Source: a virus | IMG/VR virus record: IMGVR_UViG_3300044816_000060 | Span: 1 to 64,000 of that record | Length of the DNA: 64,000 bases | Strand: one strand, 5' to 3' | Shown here: positions 19,745 through 41,169 of the stretch, piece by piece | Numbering within the stretch: position 1 is the stretch's first letter | Layout: the number at the start of each line of letters is the position of its first letter | Notes under the pieces: model-generated | Told to the model about the DNA's origin: nothing | The model's database searches: none | Seen by the model: the letters and a program-made list of their open reading frames with translations, nothing else | Position numbers and translations under genes: made by a program

Positions 19745-20700
19745 CGGGTCGCTCCGTTCGGCTTCGGGGAGATCAACGGCTCGTCCCAGACGGAGTCGTC
19801 GGTCGGGTTCTGGTACGGCTGATAGCCGCCTGGGTTACCGCCGGCCACGAGGCGCAGCGACACGTCGTCCTCGTACGACCCGGAGTTGATCCAGGTTGCC
19901 GGGTGGGCCACATACGTCAGGTCTCCGCCAGCAACGGACTGCGCGTAGGCCGTGGCTTTGGCGATCATCACGTCCGGAGAGACGCCGCGACGGATCGCGG
20001 CGCGCCAGGCTTTCTCGGCGGCCAGCCGCTTCACTCGCTTCGGGTAGACCGCATAGAACTCAGCGAACCGCCCTTGGTTCGCGGCCGTCTTTTCAGGGGA
20101 AGGGGAAGGGGAAGGGGAAGGGGAAGGGGAATCGCGCACGTGAGAGACACTCTCGAAACCCTTTTCTCCAGAGTCGGCAAAAAGGGTTTCGGGTGACTCT
20201 CGACAGGCTTTCGGTGGCGGCTCAAACCCTTTCGAGTCCAACTCATCAGCGGCCGCGTGTGGGTCGGGGTAGGCGACCGGCTTCCCGGCCTTGGACACGC
20301 CGTCAGGCTTTCGCGCAGGCAGCTTCCGTAGCTCCCGGGCGAGGGCACGCCGCAAGGTCCTGGACTCGGTTCGCATCGCCTCCTTGATCGCCCCCTTGAG
20401 CACGTAGGGCTGATCCGCCACGCCGTCATTACGGATCATGGTTCGCACCAAGATCTCGTCGGTGTCATCGTCGATCAGGACGTAACCGCCGGCCGCTAGC
20501 GCCTTGAGCGCCTTCTCTGTTTCCGCGATCGTCAGGGACGCGTTGCGGGCCCACTTGGCCATCCGAATCGCACCGACACCAGCGAAGTTGATGGTGGGCT
20601 CCGTCAGCAGAACCGCGTAGAGCAGCTTCGCGTACGGGCCCTGACCGTCCAGACCCTCTCTCCAGATCCCGAACTGGAACCGGGCCTCACTCCTCGCCAT
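19741..20700 (-). CDS. Replication initiator, winged-helix type
   Basis: 319 residues. The N-terminal ~110 residues (FQFGIWREGLDGQGPYAKLLYAVLLTEPTINFAGVGAIR; LTIAETEKALKALAAGGYVLIDDDTDEILVRTMIRNDG) look like the DnaD/O-protein winged helix. The middle is a linker containing (SP)6. The C-terminal FYAVYPKRVKRLAAEKAWRAAIRRG...ATWINSG is the helicase-loader-interacting segment seen in phage initiators. The linker is encoded by a perfect hexanucleotide repeat. Confidence 0.8.
   Translation of the reverse strand: MARSEARFQFGIWREGLDGQGPYAKLLYAVLLTEPTINFAGVGAIRMAKWARNASLTIAETEKALKALAAGGYVLIDDDTDEILVRTMIRNDGVADQPYVLKGAIKEAMRTESRTLRRALARELRKLPARKPDGVSKAGKPVAYPDPHAAADELDSKGFEPPPKACRESPETLFADSGEKGFESVSHVRDSPSPSPSPSPSPEKTAANQGRFAEFYAVYPKRVKRLAAEKAWRAAIRRGVSPDVMIAKATAYAQSVAGGDLTYVAHPATWINSGSYEDDVSLRLVAGGNPGGYQPYQNPTDDSVWDEPLISPKPNGATR
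20095..20130. repeat. Six tandem AGGGGA hexanucleotides inside the initiator gene
   Basis: 36 bases of perfect 6-bp repeat encode the Ser-Pro linker on the minus strand. In lambda-like phages the origin iterons lie inside the initiator gene at the linker, so this is either an origin element or a slippage-prone linker. Confidence 0.7.
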
Positions 20701-27418: not shown

Positions 27419-28339
27419 TCAGACGCCCACCTCGGACAGGTCGAGTAGCGCGGGGGCGGCCAGCTCAGCTTCGAGCCGCTGGAGATTGCGAACCGCGGAA
27501 TCGTGATACGACCTCTTTAGTTCGCAACCCCACGCTCGGCGGCCCAGCTTCACTGCCACATACGGCTCAGACCCGACACCCGAGAAGGGGCTGACGACCA
27601 GCTCACCGGGGTTGGACCAGAGCCGCACGCAGCGCTCGATGAAGTCGAGCTGTAGGGCGTGCAGGTGGCGGGTGTCGTCGGCCTCCTTCGCCTCCGCCAC
27701 GTTCAGCGTGTGCGTGCGGCGGATGCCCAGCCACACCGGCCGGGCCCAGTCGATCCAGTTCTGATTCGACACGCCAGGCGGCGGCTCGTCCGCGGAGTGT
27801 GGGATCGGCACCTCGTTCTGCCCTGGTTTGATGAAGTGAAGCATCTGGTCCCCGGTGGCCGGCGAGGTGCGCGCGGAGTCACGGTTCTTCGTCACGAACA
27901 TCAGGTGCTGCGCCTTGGTGCGGGTGGCGACGGCCTGCGGGTCGAGGTCTACCCACCACCGGCCGTAGAACGTCCAGCCCGCAGCGACGTGGGCGCGAAT
28001 GACGTCCCCGGAGAGGTCGTAGAGGCCGGAGACCCCGTGCGTGGCCTTGGTGGTGGCTACGTCGGCGATGTGGACGCAACAGCTGCGGCCGGGCTTCGTG
28101 ACCCGCAGGAGTTCATTACAGATAAAATTGTAATGCTGGATAAACTCGTCAGGGTTGGCACAGTTTCCAAGGTCACGCGGGCTTGGCGAATATGAGTACA
28201 AACCTGCGAAAGGTGGAGAAAAAACTGACAGGTCTACCGAGTCATTAGCCAGCTCGACCATTCTCTTGCATGAGTCACCGAGCAGTAAATCCCAGTTCTC
28301 GCCGTAGGCTTCATCCTCTTCGTATACCTCGTCGATCAT
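27419..28339 (-). CDS. Beta-class DNA methyltransferase (N6-adenine/N4-cytosine)
   Basis: 306 residues. Catalytic motif IV is SPPF (41-44). AdoMet-binding motif I comes late: LVVSPFSGVGSEPYVAVKLGRRAWGCELKRSY. That order (IV before I) defines the beta class. No specificity subunit is visible. It is directly downstream of an SNF2 helicase with ATGA coupling. The N-terminal third is markedly richer in A+T (around 28.1-28.3 kb) than its neighbours, hinting at a different origin. Confidence 0.85.
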   Translation of the reverse strand: MIDEVYEEDEAYGENWDLLLGDSCKRMVELANDSVDLSVFSPPFAGLYSYSPSPRDLGNCANPDEFIQHYNFICNELLRVTKPGRSCCVHIADVATTKATHGVSGLYDLSGDVIRAHVAAGWTFYGRWWVDLDPQAVATRTKAQHLMFVTKNRDSARTSPATGDQMLHFIKPGQNEVPIPHSADEPPPGVSNQNWIDWARPVWLGIRRTHTLNVAEAKEADDTRHLHALQLDFIERCVRLWSNPGELVVSPFSGVGSEPYVAVKLGRRAWGCELKRSYHDSAVRNLQRLEAELAAPALLDLSEVGV

Positions 28340-29646
28340 GCTGCGCTCCTAGTCAGCTCATGACGAGCAGCCTTCATCTCGGCGACGAGTTGGGCCATCA
28401 TCAACTCGTGCTCGCGCTCTTTTCGGGCCACGTTGTGGGCGATCTGCTGCTCAATCTCAGACAGGATCACGTGCACCTTCACCACTCTGGTTTGCCCATA
28501 GCGGTAGCTGCGCCGGATACACTGGAAGTAATCCTCAAAGCTGTACCCCATCCCACAGAATGCCTGCCGGGCCGACCTCTGAAAATTGAGCCCTCTACCG
28601 GCAATACTCGGTTTTGTGATCAGATGTTGAATGGTTCCGTCAGCGAATGCGAGGAGTAGTTCCGCCTTCTCTTCCGGACTCATCGACCCGTGCACGTTCA
28701 CCGAGCCGGGGATGAGGTCGGCCAACATCTGGGCCTCCGCGTTCAGCCCGGCCCACAACAGCCACGGCTCGTGAGGCTCGGCCGCGACGAGCTCGGCGGC
28801 TCGCTCACACCTGGGCGCGAGGGTCTCCCTACGGACCCGCGCCGTACCGGACACTCCGCCCAAGTCGGTGGCGAACAGCTGCCCCTCCGACTCGACATGC
28901 ACCGGGACCAGCTCGGGCACAACGTCCAGGCCGGGAAGGTCGTATCCGTCATCTGGGTAGCCGATGTCGGATGGCCGGCGCAGCGCGACCGCCCAGGACG
29001 CCAGCCATCGGTACATCGGGCCTCGGGCATGGCCCTTGACCCGCCATCCGTCGTCGTCGTGGATGAAGTAGCTCGACAACATATCGACCCGCGACATCAC
29101 CCCGAGGAATGCCGACTGGTTCGTCAGTTCCTCCGCGTCGTTCGGCGCCGGAGTGGCGGTGCAGGATAGACGGCGTGGGACGGGGGCGAAGTGCTCGATG
29201 AGCAGATTCCGGGTCTTCCCCGTCGAGTCACGAAGTACAGAGCCCTCATCGAGTACTACGACGTCGAGTTCGCGGGGGTCGAACCGGTCGACCATCTCGT
29301 AGTTGGTCACCCACACTCCACGGCCGGTGATCTGCTCGCTGTTCCTGACGTAGTGGGCGTCGATGTCGAGCAGAGCGGCTTCCCGGACTGTCTGCTGGCA
29401 CACCGCCAGCGGTGCCACGATCAGGGATGTGTCACCGGACAGTCGGCAGTACTCAAGGGACATGGCGGTTTTCCCCGTGCCTGTGGTGGTCCATAATCCG
29501 GCTCGGCCATGCGCCACCGTCCAGCGGACCAGATCGGCTTGGAATCCATGGAGTCGGGGATGGATAGCGGACGGCTCGATTCGGCTGCCCAGAGTCGGAG
29601 CGAGCCGCACTTTGGATGCGAGGAAGGATTCATACGAGGTGGTCAC
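28336..29646 (-). CDS. SNF2-family DEAD/DEAH-type helicase
   Basis: 436 residues from a GTG (GTGA overlap). Walker A TTGTGKT (54-60), motif II VVLDEGS (about 130-136), motif III SCTATP (161-166), C-terminal helicase domain with TKPSIAGRGLNFQ and the arginine motif RRSYRYGQTR. The compact SNF2 core with no accessory domain is common in phage replication operons and probably acts in recombination-dependent replication. Confidence 0.9.
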   Translation of the reverse strand: MTTSYESFLASKVRLAPTLGSRIEPSAIHPRLHGFQADLVRWTVAHGRAGLWTTTGTGKTAMSLEYCRLSGDTSLIVAPLAVCQQTVREAALLDIDAHYVRNSEQITGRGVWVTNYEMVDRFDPRELDVVVLDEGSVLRDSTGKTRNLLIEHFAPVPRRLSCTATPAPNDAEELTNQSAFLGVMSRVDMLSSYFIHDDDGWRVKGHARGPMYRWLASWAVALRRPSDIGYPDDGYDLPGLDVVPELVPVHVESEGQLFATDLGGVSGTARVRRETLAPRCERAAELVAAEPHEPWLLWAGLNAEAQMLADLIPGSVNVHGSMSPEEKAELLLAFADGTIQHLITKPSIAGRGLNFQRSARQAFCGMGYSFEDYFQCIRRSYRYGQTRVVKVHVILSEIEQQIAHNVARKEREHELMMAQLVAEMKAARHELTRSAA

Positions 29647-29927
29647 CGCTTCCCCTTCCCGGCGTTCTCCCGCTTCGCCGTGACCGCCCGCACCGTCCCC
29701 GCATCCCGCTGGACGAGCTGCTCGGCGGGTGGCGGGACACACCGCGACACCGGCACAACCTCCCGCTCAGGAGAGCCACCGAACACGGCCACCGCGGCCC
29801 AGATGAGCAGCCCGCCCACGACGATCCAGCGGACCGGGTTGGGGGGGCGTGGGGTTTCCACCATGCAGGGGGCGGCGTTGAGCTGGGCGATGATGTCGTC
29901 CAGGGTGTCGTCTGGGGCGCCCTTCAT
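29643..29927 (-). CDS. Single-pass membrane protein
   Basis: 94 residues; a transmembrane helix (RWIVVGGLLIWAAVAVFG) in the middle, acidic N-terminus and basic C-terminus. Overlaps both neighbours by 4 bp. Confidence 0.6.
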   Translation of the reverse strand: MKGAPDDTLDDIIAQLNAAPCMVETPRPPNPVRWIVVGGLLIWAAVAVFGGSPEREVVPVSRCVPPPAEQLVQRDAGTVRAVTAKRENAGKGKR

Positions 29928-31120: not shown

Positions 31121-31185
31121 CAGAGCCTCCCGGTGGTCGGGGCGAACTCCAACGGCTCCCACGCGAACGTGCGGGTGGGGGTCAC
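31117..31185 (-). CDS. 22-residue coupled mini-gene
   Basis: MTPTRTFAWEPLEFAPTTG...; start and stop both form GTGA overlaps with the flanking genes, filling an otherwise empty 61-bp gap. This is the main evidence that it is real. Confidence 0.45.
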   Translation of the reverse strand: MTPTRTFAWEPLEFAPTTGRLW

Positions 31186-32279
31186 TTCGCTGCCGCCTTC
31201 GCCTTGATGGGACGTCCGGCGATGTCGACCTCACGCACAACGGTGGCTCGCGGAGCCTTCGCCTTCGGGGTGTTGGAGTCGGTGATCGGACGCAGCTCCG
31301 ACAGGAGCACGGTGCACTCCAGCCAACGTGTCGCGTGGTGGTCGTAAGCCGATGCTTGGGCGGGGGACGGGGAGAAGTGGAGGCCGTTGCCGCAGGCGTC
31401 CGTGTCCTGCCAGTCGTCGCAGGTGACCTCGGCGCCGATCTCGTACAGCGCACCGTGTTGTGACTTGAGGTCGTCCCGGACGGCTTTGAACACAGTGATC
31501 CGGCCGTCTGCAATGTCGGCGCCGTGGAACTCAGCCCACGTTCGTGGGTAGGATTGGTCGACCGTGGTGAGGTCGATGAGGTGTCCGCCGGTGAACGTGG
31601 CTCTCGCGGAGTGAACGAACAAGGCGACATGGCTCCCGGCCCGCTCAACGGTGCCGCCGTACATGTGGATGGTCGGAGTGCCTGATGCCCGCTTGACCGT
31701 GCCGCCAGCGATCCACTCGACCGTGCCGCCAGCGATCCACTCGACCGTGCCGCCATCGATCCGCTTGACCGTGCCGCCACCGATCCGCTTGACCGTGCCG
31801 CCATCGATCCGCTTGACCGTGCCGCCAGTGATCCACTTGACCGTGCCGCCAGCGATCCACTCGACCGTGCCGCCATCGATCCACTCGACCGTGCCGCCAC
31901 CGATCCGCTCGACCGTGCCGCCACCGATCCACTCGACCGTGCCGCCACCGATCCACTCGACCGTGCCGCCAGCGATCCGCTTGACCGTGCCGCCATCGAT
32001 CCGCTTGACCGTGCCGCCATCGATCCGCTTGACCGTGCCGCCAGTGATCCACTTGACCGTGCCGCCATCGATCCGCTCGACCGTGCCGCCATCGATCCGC
32101 TCGACCGTGCCGCCATCGATCCACTCGATGCAGGATTGGCCGGTCACGGTGACCGCGCTCTGACCGGTGTCTCTGATGTTGATCCACACACCACGCGGGG
32201 AATCGATTTTTACATCCTGTACCCCATCGGCGATGGCCTGATCCAGCTCGGCCTGCGAAACAACTACGCGCTCGCTCAT
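31182..32279 (-). CDS. Octapeptide-repeat (beta-solenoid) protein with a conserved phage C-terminal domain
   Basis: 365 residues from MSERVVVSQAELDQ (ATGA overlap). Residues ~1-55 lead into 18 tandem octapeptides GGTV(E/K)(R/W)I(D/T/A/G), about residues 56-199, with strictly alternating small/hydrophobic positions as in beta-solenoids. The C-terminal ~115 residues (FKAVRDDLKSQHGALYEIGAEVTCDDWQDTDACGNGLHFSP...) resemble a phage domain found without known function in other actinophages (DUF7666-like, from memory). Unit sidechains alternate acidic (E) and basic (K), and R with W, suggesting a patterned binding face. Unknown role; it lies early in the lytic operon. Confidence 0.75.
   Translation of the reverse strand: MSERVVVSQAELDQAIADGVQDVKIDSPRGVWINIRDTGQSAVTVTGQSCIEWIDGGTVERIDGGTVERIDGGTVKWITGGTVKRIDGGTVKRIDGGTVKRIAGGTVEWIGGGTVEWIGGGTVERIGGGTVEWIDGGTVEWIAGGTVKWITGGTVKRIDGGTVKRIGGGTVKRIDGGTVEWIAGGTVEWIAGGTVKRASGTPTIHMYGGTVERAGSHVALFVHSARATFTGGHLIDLTTVDQSYPRTWAEFHGADIADGRITVFKAVRDDLKSQHGALYEIGAEVTCDDWQDTDACGNGLHFSPSPAQASAYDHHATRWLECTVLLSELRPITDSNTPKAKAPRATVVREVDIAGRPIKAKAAAK
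31683..32114. repeat. 18 tandem 24-bp repeats
   Basis: Nearly perfect 24-bp units (core ACCGTGCCGCC as read on the plus strand) encode the octapeptide array. Differences are confined to a few positions, and blocks such as KWIT-KRID recur (units 3-5 and 12-15), suggesting internal duplication. Copy number may vary by slippage. Confidence 0.95.
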
Positions 32280-32871: not shown

Positions 32872-33693
32872 TTATGCGGGGAGAGCGGGCGGGCTGACAC
32901 CTCCGAGGTGTTGGTGAAGCCAGCCCATGCCCTTCACCGTCACGCGGATCTGCGGTGGATCCAGCACGAGTTCGCCCGTGCGGGGGTGGTAGTGGCTCTG
33001 CGGGATCTCGGAGAGCCGGCCGGACTCGATGGCCGACTGGTAGCAGCGGTGGCGCTGGTCGATCTGCTGCCGGTAGATCCAGCGCAGGTCGCGCAGCACG
33101 GTGAACAGACGATCACGGCCCAGCTTGATCTGTGGGTCGCGGCTGAGGATCTTCGCCGCGTCGGCGACGCTGAGGTCACCGCTCGCGGTGGCGAGGACGT
33201 TCCACTGCTCGGCGGCCGGTTCGAGCTCGGCCACTTTCGCCTCAGCGGCGACCGCGCGGTCCATCTGGTCGGCGGCCAGGCGCAGAGCCTCTTGCAACGT
33301 CTGCGGGATCTCGTGGCGCTGAGCGGGCACGTTGGCTGGAGTCTCGCCGCGACGCAGCGCGGGCAGGACGTCCCGGTACACCCAGGTCTGGAAGCGGGAC
33401 ACCAAGTCGCGCACGGTCTCGTCGGAGATGCGGGCGGCCTGCCGCTGTCCGAGTGCCCGGTAGAACCCGGCCTCGGTCAGGTAGGTGGTCCGCTGGTCAC
33501 CGCCTGGGGTACACGCTGTCGTGTACCCCTTCTCCTCGGCTGGGATGGTCTCCAAGAGTCGGTAGGCGTCTCGGATACCGAGGGCGTGGGCGACTTCCGG
33601 CGCAGACACGTGGAAGCCGTCGTTCGGGTGCGCGGTGACGGACAGGTTGAACTCGCCGTTGCTGAACGGCTGCACGACCAGGTCGCCGCTCAT
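32872..33693 (-). CDS. Phage antirepressor (BRO-N plus KilA-C-type C-terminus)
   Basis: 273 residues from MSGDLVVQPFSNGEFNL. The N-terminal BRO domain (FHVSAPEVAHALGIRDAYRLLETIPAEEKGYT; YLTEAGFYRALGQRQAARISDETVRDLVSRFQTWVYRDVLPALRR) is classical. The C-terminal half matches the KilAC/Ant DNA-binding type (SVADAAKILSRDPQIKLGRDRLFTVLRDLRWIY...). It likely counteracts lysogenic repression as a third gene of the leftward early operon. Confidence 0.9.
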   Translation of the reverse strand: MSGDLVVQPFSNGEFNLSVTAHPNDGFHVSAPEVAHALGIRDAYRLLETIPAEEKGYTTACTPGGDQRTTYLTEAGFYRALGQRQAARISDETVRDLVSRFQTWVYRDVLPALRRGETPANVPAQRHEIPQTLQEALRLAADQMDRAVAAEAKVAELEPAAEQWNVLATASGDLSVADAAKILSRDPQIKLGRDRLFTVLRDLRWIYRQQIDQRHRCYQSAIESGRLSEIPQSHYHPRTGELVLDPPQIRVTVKGMGWLHQHLGGVSPPALPA

Positions 33694-35360: not shown

Positions 35361-36551
35361 ATGCCCGGCCGGCCGCCGCTGCCCGTGGGCACACACGGCT
35401 CCATCTCCGCCAAGAAAGTCGGCGGCGGGTGGCGGGCACGCTGCTACGTCCGCGACGCCGACGGGCGCCGACGCGAAGTCGTACGCACCGCGAGCTCGAA
35501 AACCGCGGCCTTGTGGGCGGTCCAGGAAGCACTCAAGACGAGGCCGGCGTTCTCCGGGTCCGACATTACCGCCGAGTCCCTGATCTCGGCGGTCGCCGAA
35601 GCCTGGTTCGCCGCCGTCCAGCGCGACGTGGACGAAGGCCAGAAGTCGCCCGGCACCTACCGCACATACCTCTCGGCGTGGACCAACCACATCGAGCCCG
35701 GCATCGGGGCGTTGCGCTGCCGGGAATGCACGGTAGCCCGCCTGGAGGGCTTCCTGGTGGAGCTGGGCGCCCGGAAGATGGCGTCAGGGCAGCGGAAGTC
35801 GGTCAAGACCGTCACCTCGGGGATCATCGGGCACGCCACCCGGCTCGGCGCGCTGCCGCTGAACCCGGTCCGGGACACCTCGAGGATCGTCGCCACCGCG
35901 AAACGCCGACCACGTGCGCTCACCGCACAGGAGATAGTCCAATGGTTGGACTACGTGCACGAGCGGGAGCAGCGCGCGGCGGGCACGTCCCGCCCGGACG
36001 TGCAAGATCTCTACTCGTTGACGTTGATGATGTTGGCGACGGGTGTGCGGATCTCGGAGATGCTCGCCGTCCGGGTCGAGGATGTGAGCCTGGACGAGGG
36101 CACGGTGAATGTGTCCCACCGGATCCGGCGGGTCACCGGGAAGGGGCTGCAGCGGGCCCGCCGTCAGGGCAGCAAGGGTGAGGCGGTGCTGCTGCGGCTC
36201 CCGTCCTGGGCGCTGACTCTGGTGAAACGGCGCCGGCTGGCCCTCGGTGGTACCGGCCCGCTGTTTCCCTCGACGGTGGGGACGTGGCGGGATCCTTCGA
36301 ACACCTCGCGGGCGTTCCGGGTCGCCCGCGACGGCGCGGGGTTCAGTTGGATGACCACGCACAACTTCCGTAAGACCGTGGCGACCCTGCTGGACGACGC
36401 GGGTCTGCCGGCCCGGTTGGTGGCTGATCAGATGACTCACAAGAAGGTGTCGATGACTCAGGATCTCTATCTGGGGCGGGGTGTGGTGGGTGATCGCGCT
36501 GCTCAGGTGCTCGAAGCGTTGGACCCGGCACGGCGAATAAGTGGGGAATAA
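35361..36551 (+). CDS. int: Tyrosine integrase
   Basis: 396 residues. N-terminal AP2-like arm-binding region (GTHGSISAKKVGGGWRARCYVRDADGRRREV), SAM-like core-binding domain (about 75-165), and catalytic domain with R230 (ATGVRISEML), H334-x-x-R337 (HNFRK), H360 (MTHKK) and Y370 (DLYLGR). The attP core and arm sites follow immediately. Confidence 0.95.
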   Translation: MPGRPPLPVGTHGSISAKKVGGGWRARCYVRDADGRRREVVRTASSKTAALWAVQEALKTRPAFSGSDITAESLISAVAEAWFAAVQRDVDEGQKSPGTYRTYLSAWTNHIEPGIGALRCRECTVARLEGFLVELGARKMASGQRKSVKTVTSGIIGHATRLGALPLNPVRDTSRIVATAKRRPRALTAQEIVQWLDYVHEREQRAAGTSRPDVQDLYSLTLMMLATGVRISEMLAVRVEDVSLDEGTVNVSHRIRRVTGKGLQRARRQGSKGEAVLLRLPSWALTLVKRRRLALGGTGPLFPSTVGTWRDPSNTSRAFRVARDGAGFSWMTTHNFRKTVATLLDDAGLPARLVADQMTHKKVSMTQDLYLGRGVVGDRAAQVLEALDPARRISGE

Positions 36552-38711: not shown

Positions 38712-38983
38712 GCCGGAAGCGACGCACCGCGTTCCCCCGCAACCCGGCCAGCAGCCTGCTCATGTCCCTGCTGCGGCTGGTCGAGGCGTTCCGGCATGTC
38801 CGGTCGAAGGGGCAGACGACGCGGCGCCGAGCGGTCGCTCGGGCCGCCCGACCGCCTGATCGGTGCCCCACCTGCCGCCAGGACGTACCGCACTCGCCCG
38901 ACTGGCGCGACCACGTCCATGACGACCTACCGGGCCGGGCACGACCGTCACACCAGTTCGGACGAGACATGGGGGCGAGATGA
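38708..38983 (+). CDS. Small basic zinc-finger protein
   Basis: 91 residues from a GTG (GTGA overlap). Basic helix then a single CPTCRQDVPHSPDWRDHVHDD finger (C-x2-C, H-x-H region). ATGA-coupled to the FtsK gene. Confidence 0.6.
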   Translation: MSRKRRTAFPRNPASSLLMSLLRLVEAFRHVRSKGQTTRRRAVARAARPPDRCPTCRQDVPHSPDWRDHVHDDLPGRARPSHQFGRDMGAR

Positions 38984-41169
38984 CCACCACCGAGCACGAG
39001 ACCGGGCAGGCCACACCGGAGCCAGAACCCCGACCGATCCAGCCGGACCTGGATGCGCCGATCCTGCCCATGTGGGCGCGGGACAAGGACACCTTCACCT
39101 CCACATCCCGGCAGCTACGCAAACGCACCGGCTACCGGGTGCGGAAGTTCCTGCTGCACCTCCCGGCCGTCGCGTTCTGGCTGCTCGGGATCTACCCGTG
39201 GCGCGGCCTGGCCCGCATCGTGGCGAAGCTGTCCCGTTACCTCTATGACTACGACTCCGCGATGGTGAGGCACGAGCACGCCGGCCGCGTCGAAACCGCC
39301 GAGTACGTCCGCGCCCAGAACGTCCGCAAGGCCAACCTGAAAGCCCGGTGGATGGTCGCCGGCACCGTCACCCTGGTCGTGGTCGGCCCGCCGTTGGCGT
39401 GGACGTTCCCGTCGGTGCTGTCCGGGATCTGCGGTGTCGCTCTCGCCGTGTGGATCATCAAGCTCATTCCCGGGCGGTCCATGTGGGAGATCGTCGTAGC
39501 CGCCGCCGCGGGGATCGCCGTAGGAGTGTTCGGGCCGGACGCGCTCGCCCTGATCCCTCGCCCCCCCGGCTGGGCCGTCACCGCCGTCCTGGGCGGCGGC
39601 TGGCTCGGGTTGGGGTTCCTCGGTCGCCCCGAAGGCAAGTCCCTCGTCAAGGGCACCACCATGGGCGAGGGCATCGTCATGCCCCTCAAAGCCCCGATGG
39701 TGCGGGAGGCGCTGTGCCAGCTCGGGATCTCCGGCATGAAGGAACCCGACCAGATCCGGTTGCTCCAGGACGCCCACCGCTACGGGCCCGGAGTGCAGAT
39801 GGACCTCGATCTGCCCGTGGCGGCCACGCAGGTGATGAAGAAACGCGAGGAACTGGCAGCCAAGCTCAAGCGTGAGCTCGGGTGCGTGTGGCCGTCGGTC
39901 GGCACTCGGCACGCCGCGCACCTCGCGCTGTATGTGTGCGACGAGCCGGTGGTGAGACAACGCCAACGTGACTGGCCGCTGGCGAAGGGTGGGCGGGTGG
40001 ACATCTTCCAACCGGTCCCGTTCGTCACCGACCGGCGCGGCGAATGGGTCGACGTCACATTCGTCCCCTCATCGGTCGTGATCGGGGCTTTGCCGAGGAT
40101 GGGCAAAACCTGGTTGCTGCGGCAGGCGTTACTGGCCGCTGGACTCGACCCACGGACACGGGTCTACGCCCTCGACGGGAAAGGCACCGGCGACCTCGCT
40201 CCGTGCCGGCTGTTCGCACACTTCCATTCCTCCGGTGAGGACCCGGAGGAGGTGGAAGAACGGGTGTTGCCGATGTTGCGGGGGCTCCAGGACGAACGCC
40301 GTCGTAGGGCTCGTTTCATCCGGGATCTACCGCGCGAGGAAGCCCCCGAGTCGAAAGTTACGTCGGAACTGGTGGACCGTTACCCGCACCTGGCGCCGAT
40401 CGTCCTCGGAGTCGACGAGAGCCAAACTTACTTCGGTTACGGCATGCCGAAGAACCGGGCGCACAAGGCGGTGCGTGACGAGATCATCGCCCTTGTAACG
40501 GACCTGGTGAAGCTGGGTCCAGCGCTTGGGTTCGTAACGATCCTGGCAACGCAGAACGTGTGCGAGGAAACGATCCCCCGCCAGATCGGCACGAACGCCG
40601 CGATCCGTTTCGCGTTGAAGTTGTTCGACCACGTAACGAACGACCAGGTGATGGGCACCGGCGCCTACAGCAAGGGTGTCGATGCAACGGTGTTCGATAT
40701 CGATGACAAGGGCATCGCGGTGATGCGCGCCGACGGCAGCCAGCCGCAAGTGGTCCGTTCGGTCGCCGGCTTGGACGCGATCCGCTCGGAGCGGATCGCC
40801 GAGCGGGCACGGGCGCTGCGGCTTTCCCTGGGCAGGTTGACCGGCGAGGCTGCCGACCAAGTCATGGACGACGAGGCCCGCCAGGTGGTGCTGCTCGACG
40901 ACGTCCGGGAAGTGTTCGGGCAGGTCGACGCGATGCACCTGTCCGACCTCGTTGCCGGGTTGGCCGAGGTGCGACCGGAGCTGTACGGGCACCTGGATGT
41001 GTTCAGCCTGGGGAAGTTGCTGCGTTCGGCAGGCGTGAAGGTCGACAACGTGCACGTGGCCGGGAAGCCGCGGGAGGAGTCGTCTCGGAAGGGTGTGAAG
41101 CGGGAGTGGCTGGACGTGTCCGCGACGGAGACCATCGGGGAACCGGACGACGAGGCGGAGGAAGGGTGA
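38980..41169 (+). CDS. FtsK/SpoIIIE-type DNA translocase (Tra-like)
   Basis: 729 residues. Transmembrane segments at about 57-72, 125-142, 147-165, 168-183 and 197-213; cytoplasmic motor with P-loop GALPRMGKT (369-377), LDGKGTGDL, Walker B IVLGVDESQ (474-482) and ILATQ (521-525). A C-terminal winged-helix-like region (LLRSAGVKVDNVHVAGKPREES...) takes the place of the gamma/DNA-reading domain. Architecture and neighbours (DUF2637, DUF4236-like, zinc ribbons) match the Tra translocases that move double-stranded DNA between mycelia in actinomycete plasmids and AICEs. It lacks the long linker of cell-division FtsK. Confidence 0.85.
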   Translation: MTTTEHETGQATPEPEPRPIQPDLDAPILPMWARDKDTFTSTSRQLRKRTGYRVRKFLLHLPAVAFWLLGIYPWRGLARIVAKLSRYLYDYDSAMVRHEHAGRVETAEYVRAQNVRKANLKARWMVAGTVTLVVVGPPLAWTFPSVLSGICGVALAVWIIKLIPGRSMWEIVVAAAAGIAVGVFGPDALALIPRPPGWAVTAVLGGGWLGLGFLGRPEGKSLVKGTTMGEGIVMPLKAPMVREALCQLGISGMKEPDQIRLLQDAHRYGPGVQMDLDLPVAATQVMKKREELAAKLKRELGCVWPSVGTRHAAHLALYVCDEPVVRQRQRDWPLAKGGRVDIFQPVPFVTDRRGEWVDVTFVPSSVVIGALPRMGKTWLLRQALLAAGLDPRTRVYALDGKGTGDLAPCRLFAHFHSSGEDPEEVEERVLPMLRGLQDERRRRARFIRDLPREEAPESKVTSELVDRYPHLAPIVLGVDESQTYFGYGMPKNRAHKAVRDEIIALVTDLVKLGPALGFVTILATQNVCEETIPRQIGTNAAIRFALKLFDHVTNDQVMGTGAYSKGVDATVFDIDDKGIAVMRADGSQPQVVRSVAGLDAIRSERIAERARALRLSLGRLTGEAADQVMDDEARQVVLLDDVREVFGQVDAMHLSDLVAGLAEVRPELYGHLDVFSLGKLLRSAGVKVDNVHVAGKPREESSRKGVKREWLDVSATETIGEPDDEAEEG

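Follow-up and report, generated by a model that had tools for sequence, protein, structure and literature searches.

The 64,000-nucleotide stretch of DNA analysed here (the window; positions 1 to 64,000 of the IMG/VR record IMGVR_UViG_3300044816_000060, a record of 66,079 bases with a G+C content of 67%) encodes a 365-residue protein in which an array of 18 octapeptides precedes a DUF7666 domain, and by profile comparison T4 rIIB carries a homologue of this domain at its C-terminus. We read the product as an early accessory protein, whose array is a fast-evolving binding surface and whose rIIB-C-like domain acts, with a defence of the host or of a prophage as its likeliest target; we give this reading a probability of about 0.4. 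The new element is the homology to rIIB, which ties proteins of the variable region 2 (VR2) type to rIIB. Neither the link among VR2-type proteins, DUF7666 and rIIB nor the prediction of an ADP-ribosyltransferase (ART)-like fold was present in the literature searched, a scope that excluded most subscription journals.

The features of the gene and its neighbours are listed in Table 1. The PHROG 15773 profile covers residues 6–356 of the protein (E 5e-30), and searches of NCBIfam and PADLOC and a sequence search against PDB gave no match for it. The start codon was accepted because the N-termini of the relatives align and because the ATG shares ATGA with the stop of the upstream gene. Since 24 is a multiple of three, several further frames stay open across the array; the genuine one is on the minus strand, as there the array is bracketed by conserved N- and C-terminal parts. 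The first-pass annotation had placed the gene among early genes, and the antirepressor, HTH gene, repressor-like gene and integrase found nearby agree with this, as the neighbourhood is one of early and lysogeny control. Elsewhere in the window, a helicase-like protein (28336-29742, minus strand) and an adjacent DNA methylase (27419-28339, minus strand) each match part of PHROG 16, and the pair (27419-29742) looks like the split form of what is elsewhere a single longer protein. An FtsK/SpoIIIE-like protein (38980-41166, plus strand) is encoded directly past the integrase, between the lysogeny and tail modules, and this gene might be cargo, might belong to another mobile element or might be of host origin. 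At 20095-20131 the hexanucleotide AGGGGA is repeated perfectly, for 6.2 copies.

Table 1. Features of the repeat gene and of its neighbourhood, in window coordinates.
Feature	Position	Strand	Basis
Octapeptide-repeat/DUF7666 protein gene, 365 aa	31182..32279	-	Translation; PHROG 15773 match; homologues with shared N- and C-termini
N-terminal conserved segment, residues 1-45, pattern V.xTQxELDQAL..., common to mycobacteriophage relatives	32145..32279	-	Alignments
Array, 18 x 24-bp units, GGTV[EK][RW]I[DAGT]	31695..32128	-	TRF; variation limited to unit codons 5, 6 and 8
Stray degenerate unit GGTVERAG, after the array, running into the conserved linker	31635..31658	-	Unit listing; alignment
Conserved linker, residues 214-260 (HS..., ID..., W...G)	31500..31640	-	Alignments
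DUF7666 (PF24703) domain, residues 261-354; conserved K265 and C-x-x-GLH motif (H301)	31218..31499	-	Pfam; hhalign against rIIB; structural matches to rIIB models
Antirepressor (Bro-N weak, KilAC/ANT strong), upstream, same direction	32872..33684	-	Profile matches
Tyrosine integrase of temperate phage	35361..36551	+	Profile matches

By a wide margin, the octapeptide array is the strongest TRF array in the whole window (18.1 copies of a 24-bp unit, 93% matches, 0% indels, score 665). Its 18 units span residues 56–199, with one additional stray unit at residue 208, and both TRF and translation bear out the regular array of near-identical units that had been described from the sequence. Seventeen of the 18 units match the pattern given in Table 1, and the 18th is GGTVKRAS. 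Among the 17 regular units, codon 5 is GAG or AAG (E/K), codon 6 is CGG or TGG (R/W) and codon 8 is GAT, GCT, GGT or ACT (D/A/G/T); there are no synonymous differences, and every variant changes the amino acid, a regularity that the first-pass annotation had not mentioned. The presence of all four combinations of E/K with R/W indicates recombination or conversion between units. The nucleotide changes between units include G/A, C/T, A/C, C/G and T/A. The array was rejected as the target of a diversity-generating retroelement, as no RVT_1 was found in the 66-kb record, which is perhaps incomplete, and the changes are not adenine-directed. Adjacent units are more alike than under shuffled order (lag-1 P 0.017), and this likeness in array order is what local duplication would give. 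The choices between E/K and between R/W had been called non-random; a mild order was indeed found in the lag-1 test and in the runs of E/K (P 0.02), but not in the runs of R/W (P 0.32).

These data also fit a neutral minisatellite, in which the array would be a spacer, flexible or with a loose fold, that grows and shrinks, and its few variable codons would go back to founder polymorphisms that slippage has spread, none of this serving recognition. The lag-1 similarity agrees with local duplication of this kind, and the window array alone gives no significant signal of selection (5 nonsynonymous versus 0 synonymous variants, P 0.17). In addition, stretches that are out of frame persist within the arrays of two relatives (PSSVQHRT repeats in L031; PPSMRGTR in L037, out of frame thereafter), since a 24-bp array that suffers an indel still has an open repeat frame. 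The relatives as a whole argue against this account, because pooled data from two independent architectures lack synonymous variants, different arrays vary at the same unit positions, and diverged phages carry linked dipeptide alleles of similar type. We regard a neutral array as a real if doubtful possibility.

The first of the two architectures is that of the window, an octapeptide array followed by DUF7666, which recurs in some 20 related loci whose units differ in sequence. The carriers are Mycobacterium and Gordonia phages, Dulem virus 38, and loci from IMG/VR and GTDB, and the genes are annotated as 'hypothetical'. Octapeptide arrays are present in nearly all intact relatives of the PHROG 15773/DUF7666 set, with the units [GD]SA[RH]V[EV]A[WR], GSATV[TR]AY, GSAQV[TR]A[YS] and [GD]T[AVS]TV[ERL]AY. 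The arrays vary at the same few unit positions, mainly by nonsynonymous changes. When eight lineages were pooled, there were 47 nonsynonymous and 7 synonymous within-array variants where 15 synonymous variants were expected (P 0.007), with lineages of our own grouping and counts that ignore tree kinship; unit codons 1, 6 and 8 hold 36 of the 47. The suggestion that the choices within units are restricted and probably selected is thus upheld by the few variable positions and by the pooled synonymous shortfall. Nitzel (genes 52/53; L014 2837-3453) and EleanorGeorge (gene 55; L011 2815-3312) have broken, frame-disrupted copies of the repeat gene, so that phages in nature can sometimes, at least, do without it. 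A peptide-pattern search of IMG/VR found no close relative of the window protein, a DNA pattern made from the window unit gave 50 loci with one match each, which does not indicate a shared array, and no phage near-identical to that of the window came to light. In Che8, gene 57 (a tetrapeptide repeat of the Tweety gp54 family) is two genes upstream of the octapeptide/DUF7666 gene 59, so that two variable-repeat genes are almost adjacent (L004 1677-2540 and 2896-3702).

Near-identical phages among these relatives differ in their arrays. The Charlieviruses BabeRuth and Redi have no differences across 4,511 flanking bases and differ in unit 2. The unit count is 4 in Rebel, 3 in Raymond7 and 7 in IMG2772190601 (L029), with identical 5' gene parts and identical DUF7666 parts. 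In Frankie and SkinnyPete, the 459-base 3' part is identical and the arrays are different. De novo mutation targeted to the array was considered for BabeRuth and Redi and rejected: a single conversion tract from unit 1 suffices to explain the change, and therefore array-targeted mutation is not needed. Because the unit copies are nearly perfect, the first-pass annotation expected copy number to change easily and proposed a comparison among related phages. Repeat number does vary, both among the near relatives of BabeRuth and Redi (3, 4 and 7 units with near-identical flanks) and among Bordetella phages (14, 21 and 20 units).

The second architecture was reached by a search with the relative from Burkholderia phage Mica, which led to Bbp36 of Bordetella phages, where the array is annotated as 'variable region 2'. 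Bbp36 has DUF7666 at the N-terminus, followed by GTATAG[YR/ES/NY] octapeptides, with 14 units in BPP-1, 21 in BMP-1 and 20 in BIP-1. The flanks are almost unchanged (0/450 differences upstream between BPP and BMP, 1-2/1420 downstream). According to Liu et al. (2002/2004), as reported in PMC2884959, the 24-bp element of bbp36 is repeated 9-20 times depending on the isolate, the gene is non-essential, and there is no tie to tropism. A scan of IMG/VR with the Bbp36 domain gave 35 loci. Arrays of 2-33 units were detected by script in 32, and the other three end at contig ends with the first array units visible. Residues 7-8 of the unit vary in these arrays, which hold 110 nonsynonymous and 10 synonymous variants where 38 synonymous variants were expected, a count that ignores tree kinship. 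In several of these phages (L107-L141) both variable residues are often fully linked, and the linked dipeptides of diverged phages fall into three similar classes, Y-R/K, E/D-S/G and N/A-Y/F, like a small alphabet. In the tetrapeptide array of Tweety gp54, third codon positions are invariant, which was described as 'consistent with selection for variation' (Pham et al. 2007, PMC2884959). With the precedents of VR2 and Tweety gp54, hypervariable short-repeat phage proteins and the argument for their selection are already known.

The fold of the array is less clear than its variation. The AF2 model consists of strand-turn units (pLDDT ~83), and VIA-align places it among beta-helices (TibA, Z 17.0, rmsd 3.3/225; Ag43; HetL, Z 14.3). 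A solenoid had been expected from the sequence, and AF2 does give one; this model is not trustworthy by itself, because AF2 draws solenoids from near-perfect repeats generally, and perfect repeats of random sequence gave confident AF2 beta-solenoids in 32 of 78 cases (PMC11795689). In the AF2 register, T3, E/K5 and I7 face opposite to V4, R/W6 and x8, and therefore one charged variable column (E/K or R/W) would be buried. The sidedness of the relatives (V, A and A/S on one face; H/R, E/V and W/R on the other) is more plausible. A three-unit (24-residue) super-period was rejected: Stouffer z was 3.3 in the first array set and -0.3 in the Bbp36-type arrays, and therefore it gives no argument for three units per coil.

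The alignment of the AF2 model with beta-helix and pentapeptide proteins such as HetL is also what would be expected of a solenoid mimic, a protein that, like the pentapeptide DNA mimics, would block a nuclease or some host factor. The first-pass annotation had raised this idea, and the array speaks against it. It is charge-balanced rather than acidic (K+R 19, D+E 16), so that a DNA-mimic nuclease inhibitor is unsupported; the pentapeptide motif A(D/N)LXX is absent, the period is eight residues and not five, and the AF2 solenoid itself is unreliable for such repeats. We consider a mimic very unlikely. A gp5-like triple helix is a possible form of the array, and a stalk or fibre built as a trimeric beta-helix, like that of T4 gp5 or VgrG (octapeptide VxGxxxxx), would agree with the 8-residue period and the I-x-G-G register. 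The array of Dulem virus 38 has a weak match to PF22178 Gp5_trimer_C (E 5e-5, 23.9 bits, below the cut-off of 30.9), but the window protein itself has no Gp5_trimer_C match, its gene is situated with early control genes and not with tail genes, and its C-terminal domain is rIIB-like and not virion-like. A stalk or fibre is therefore distinctly unlikely in our view. The Beta-flower profile (PF21785) scored 24.9 bits on the window protein, below its cut-off of 38.

The conserved phage C-terminal domain that had been proposed is confirmed by the matches to PHROG 15773 and PF24703 (42.1 bits on the protein and 45.1 bits on the DNA; cut-off 27). A profile of the C-terminal region, built from an alignment containing no rIIB sequence, aligned with the rIIB profile in hhalign over 106 columns (probability 95%, P 3.7e-8), and BLASTP against nACB2 rIIB gave E 5e-11, a value for that single pair. 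A further comparison was set aside as circular, because one of its alignments already contained rIIB sequences. The AF2 model of the isolated domain (pLDDT 86.7, pTM 0.78) matched annotated rIIB models of BFVD in Foldseek, with E down to 4.6e-7 and a TM of 0.6 by query. Its BFVD matches also include giant-virus proteins annotated with ankyrin repeats (Megavirus, Moumouvirus, Tupanvirus, Mimivirus R267) and a 'pentapeptide' protein of a Rheinheimera phage, and therefore the domain seems to have been joined to repeats more than once. In a survey of jumbo phages, rIIB was suggested to be a negative regulator of transcription (PMC7824862), and the window protein might by extension be a transcription regulator. 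The N-terminal HTH of rIIB is in line with such a role; HTH profiles match T4 and nACB2 rIIB but not the window protein, and the part shared is the non-HTH part of rIIB. We consider this role very improbable.

The predicted fold of DUF7666 weakly resembles ADP-ribosyltransferases. When the domain model was compared with PDB by VIA-align, the top rows were almost all from the ART superfamily, with a best Z of 7.1 (rmsd 2.8 over 83 residues), where a Z below 8 can mean just a common arrangement. The rows were KptA/Tpt1 (Z 7.1), Arr (6.4), the Rhs toxins TreX and TreTu (~5), PARPs and the anti-CRISPR 6kyf; we take the Rhs toxins and 6kyf to belong to the ART superfamily, and we did not count the absence of a family from the match list as its exclusion. 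Foldseek of the same model against PDB was not significant, and hhalign of the domain with KptA, represented by one sequence, gave P 0.49 and no alignment. The conserved residues of the domain are a K (YKAV) and an H (GLH), and the canonical H-Y-E or R-S-E triad of ARTs was not seen. By eye, and as a lead, the GLHFS stretch looks like the YVHLS of KptA.

Returning to the early accessory protein that we prefer, a temperate actinobacterial phage would make a protein with a short N-terminal segment, the octapeptide array and the rIIB-C-like domain. In-register unequal recombination or gene conversion between the 24-bp units would alter their number and shuffle a few residues; we infer this turnover for the window phage from what is seen in its relatives. 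Selection would keep the varying residues diverse, while turnover would purge neutral differences, and the pooled counts support selection for diversity at these residues without proving it. The array may then bind something variable and set the specificity of binding, and the domain, perhaps with an ART-like fold, may act on the partner so bound. By analogy with its relatives, a non-essential accessory is the best reading of the window protein. Counter-defence, a role borrowed from rIIB, is perhaps that of the window protein. In its favour, divergent rIIB proteins of diverse phages act against RexAB (PMC11879866), the gene is early and relatives can do without it, and the variability suggests an arms race.

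A bolder version, which we hold to be rather improbable, is that an ART-fold effector is common to DUF7666 and T4 rIIB and that the array aims this effector by a recombining recognition code. If so, rIIB would be the array-less relative within a widespread family of programmable anti-defence proteins. For two decades no function has been assigned to VR2 of the Bordetella phage, which has stayed a curiosity, and a biochemical mechanism for rIIB has been missing for about seventy years. One domain that joins the two would reduce them to a single testable question, namely what the partner of the array is and whether the domain modifies it. Arrays of the same period, with diversity in amino acids only and with frozen flanks, are found in phages of actinobacteria and of proteobacteria, and near-isogenic phages of M. 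smegmatis that differ almost solely in the array offer workable systems. To our knowledge, there are no experiments on DUF7666-array proteins beyond those on non-essentiality.

Among the known systems near to the window protein are the PHROG 15773 proteins of mycobacteriophages and Gordonia phages, whose genes have a similar early position. Squirty gp51, Che8 gp59, ThetaBob gp59, Redi gp44 and Spooky gp76 have the same order of N-terminal segment, array, linker and DUF7666; identity is ~30-40%, and their unit is [GD]SA[RH]V[EV]A[WR...] instead of GGTV[EK][RW]I[x]. The C-terminal domain of T4 rIIB, homologous to that of the window protein, has the conserved K, C-x-x-GLH and K motifs in common with it, whereas rIIB has an N-terminal HTH, lacks a tandem array and usually adjoins rIIA. 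Tweety gp54 and Che8 gp57 resemble the window array in their short repeats, invariant third positions and few alternative residues, but their unit is a 12-bp tetrapeptide and DUF7666 has not been reported in them. In TALEs, too, near-identical repeats differ at only one or two residues, the repeat-variable di-residues, though TALEs have no homology to the window array. Bbp36/VR2 shares with the window gene the 24-bp octapeptide units joined to DUF7666, the variation in few codons and the location among early genes, in its case after cI; its array differs in number and composition between near-identical phages, as is seen for the window kind in relatives. The two differ in layout, with the domain first and the array second in Bbp36 and the reverse order in the window protein, and also in the varying residues of the unit, which are 7-8 in Bbp36 and 5, 6 and 8 in the window protein. 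The window gene is thus a variant of VR2, with reversed domain order and different variable positions, and not a new kind of gene.
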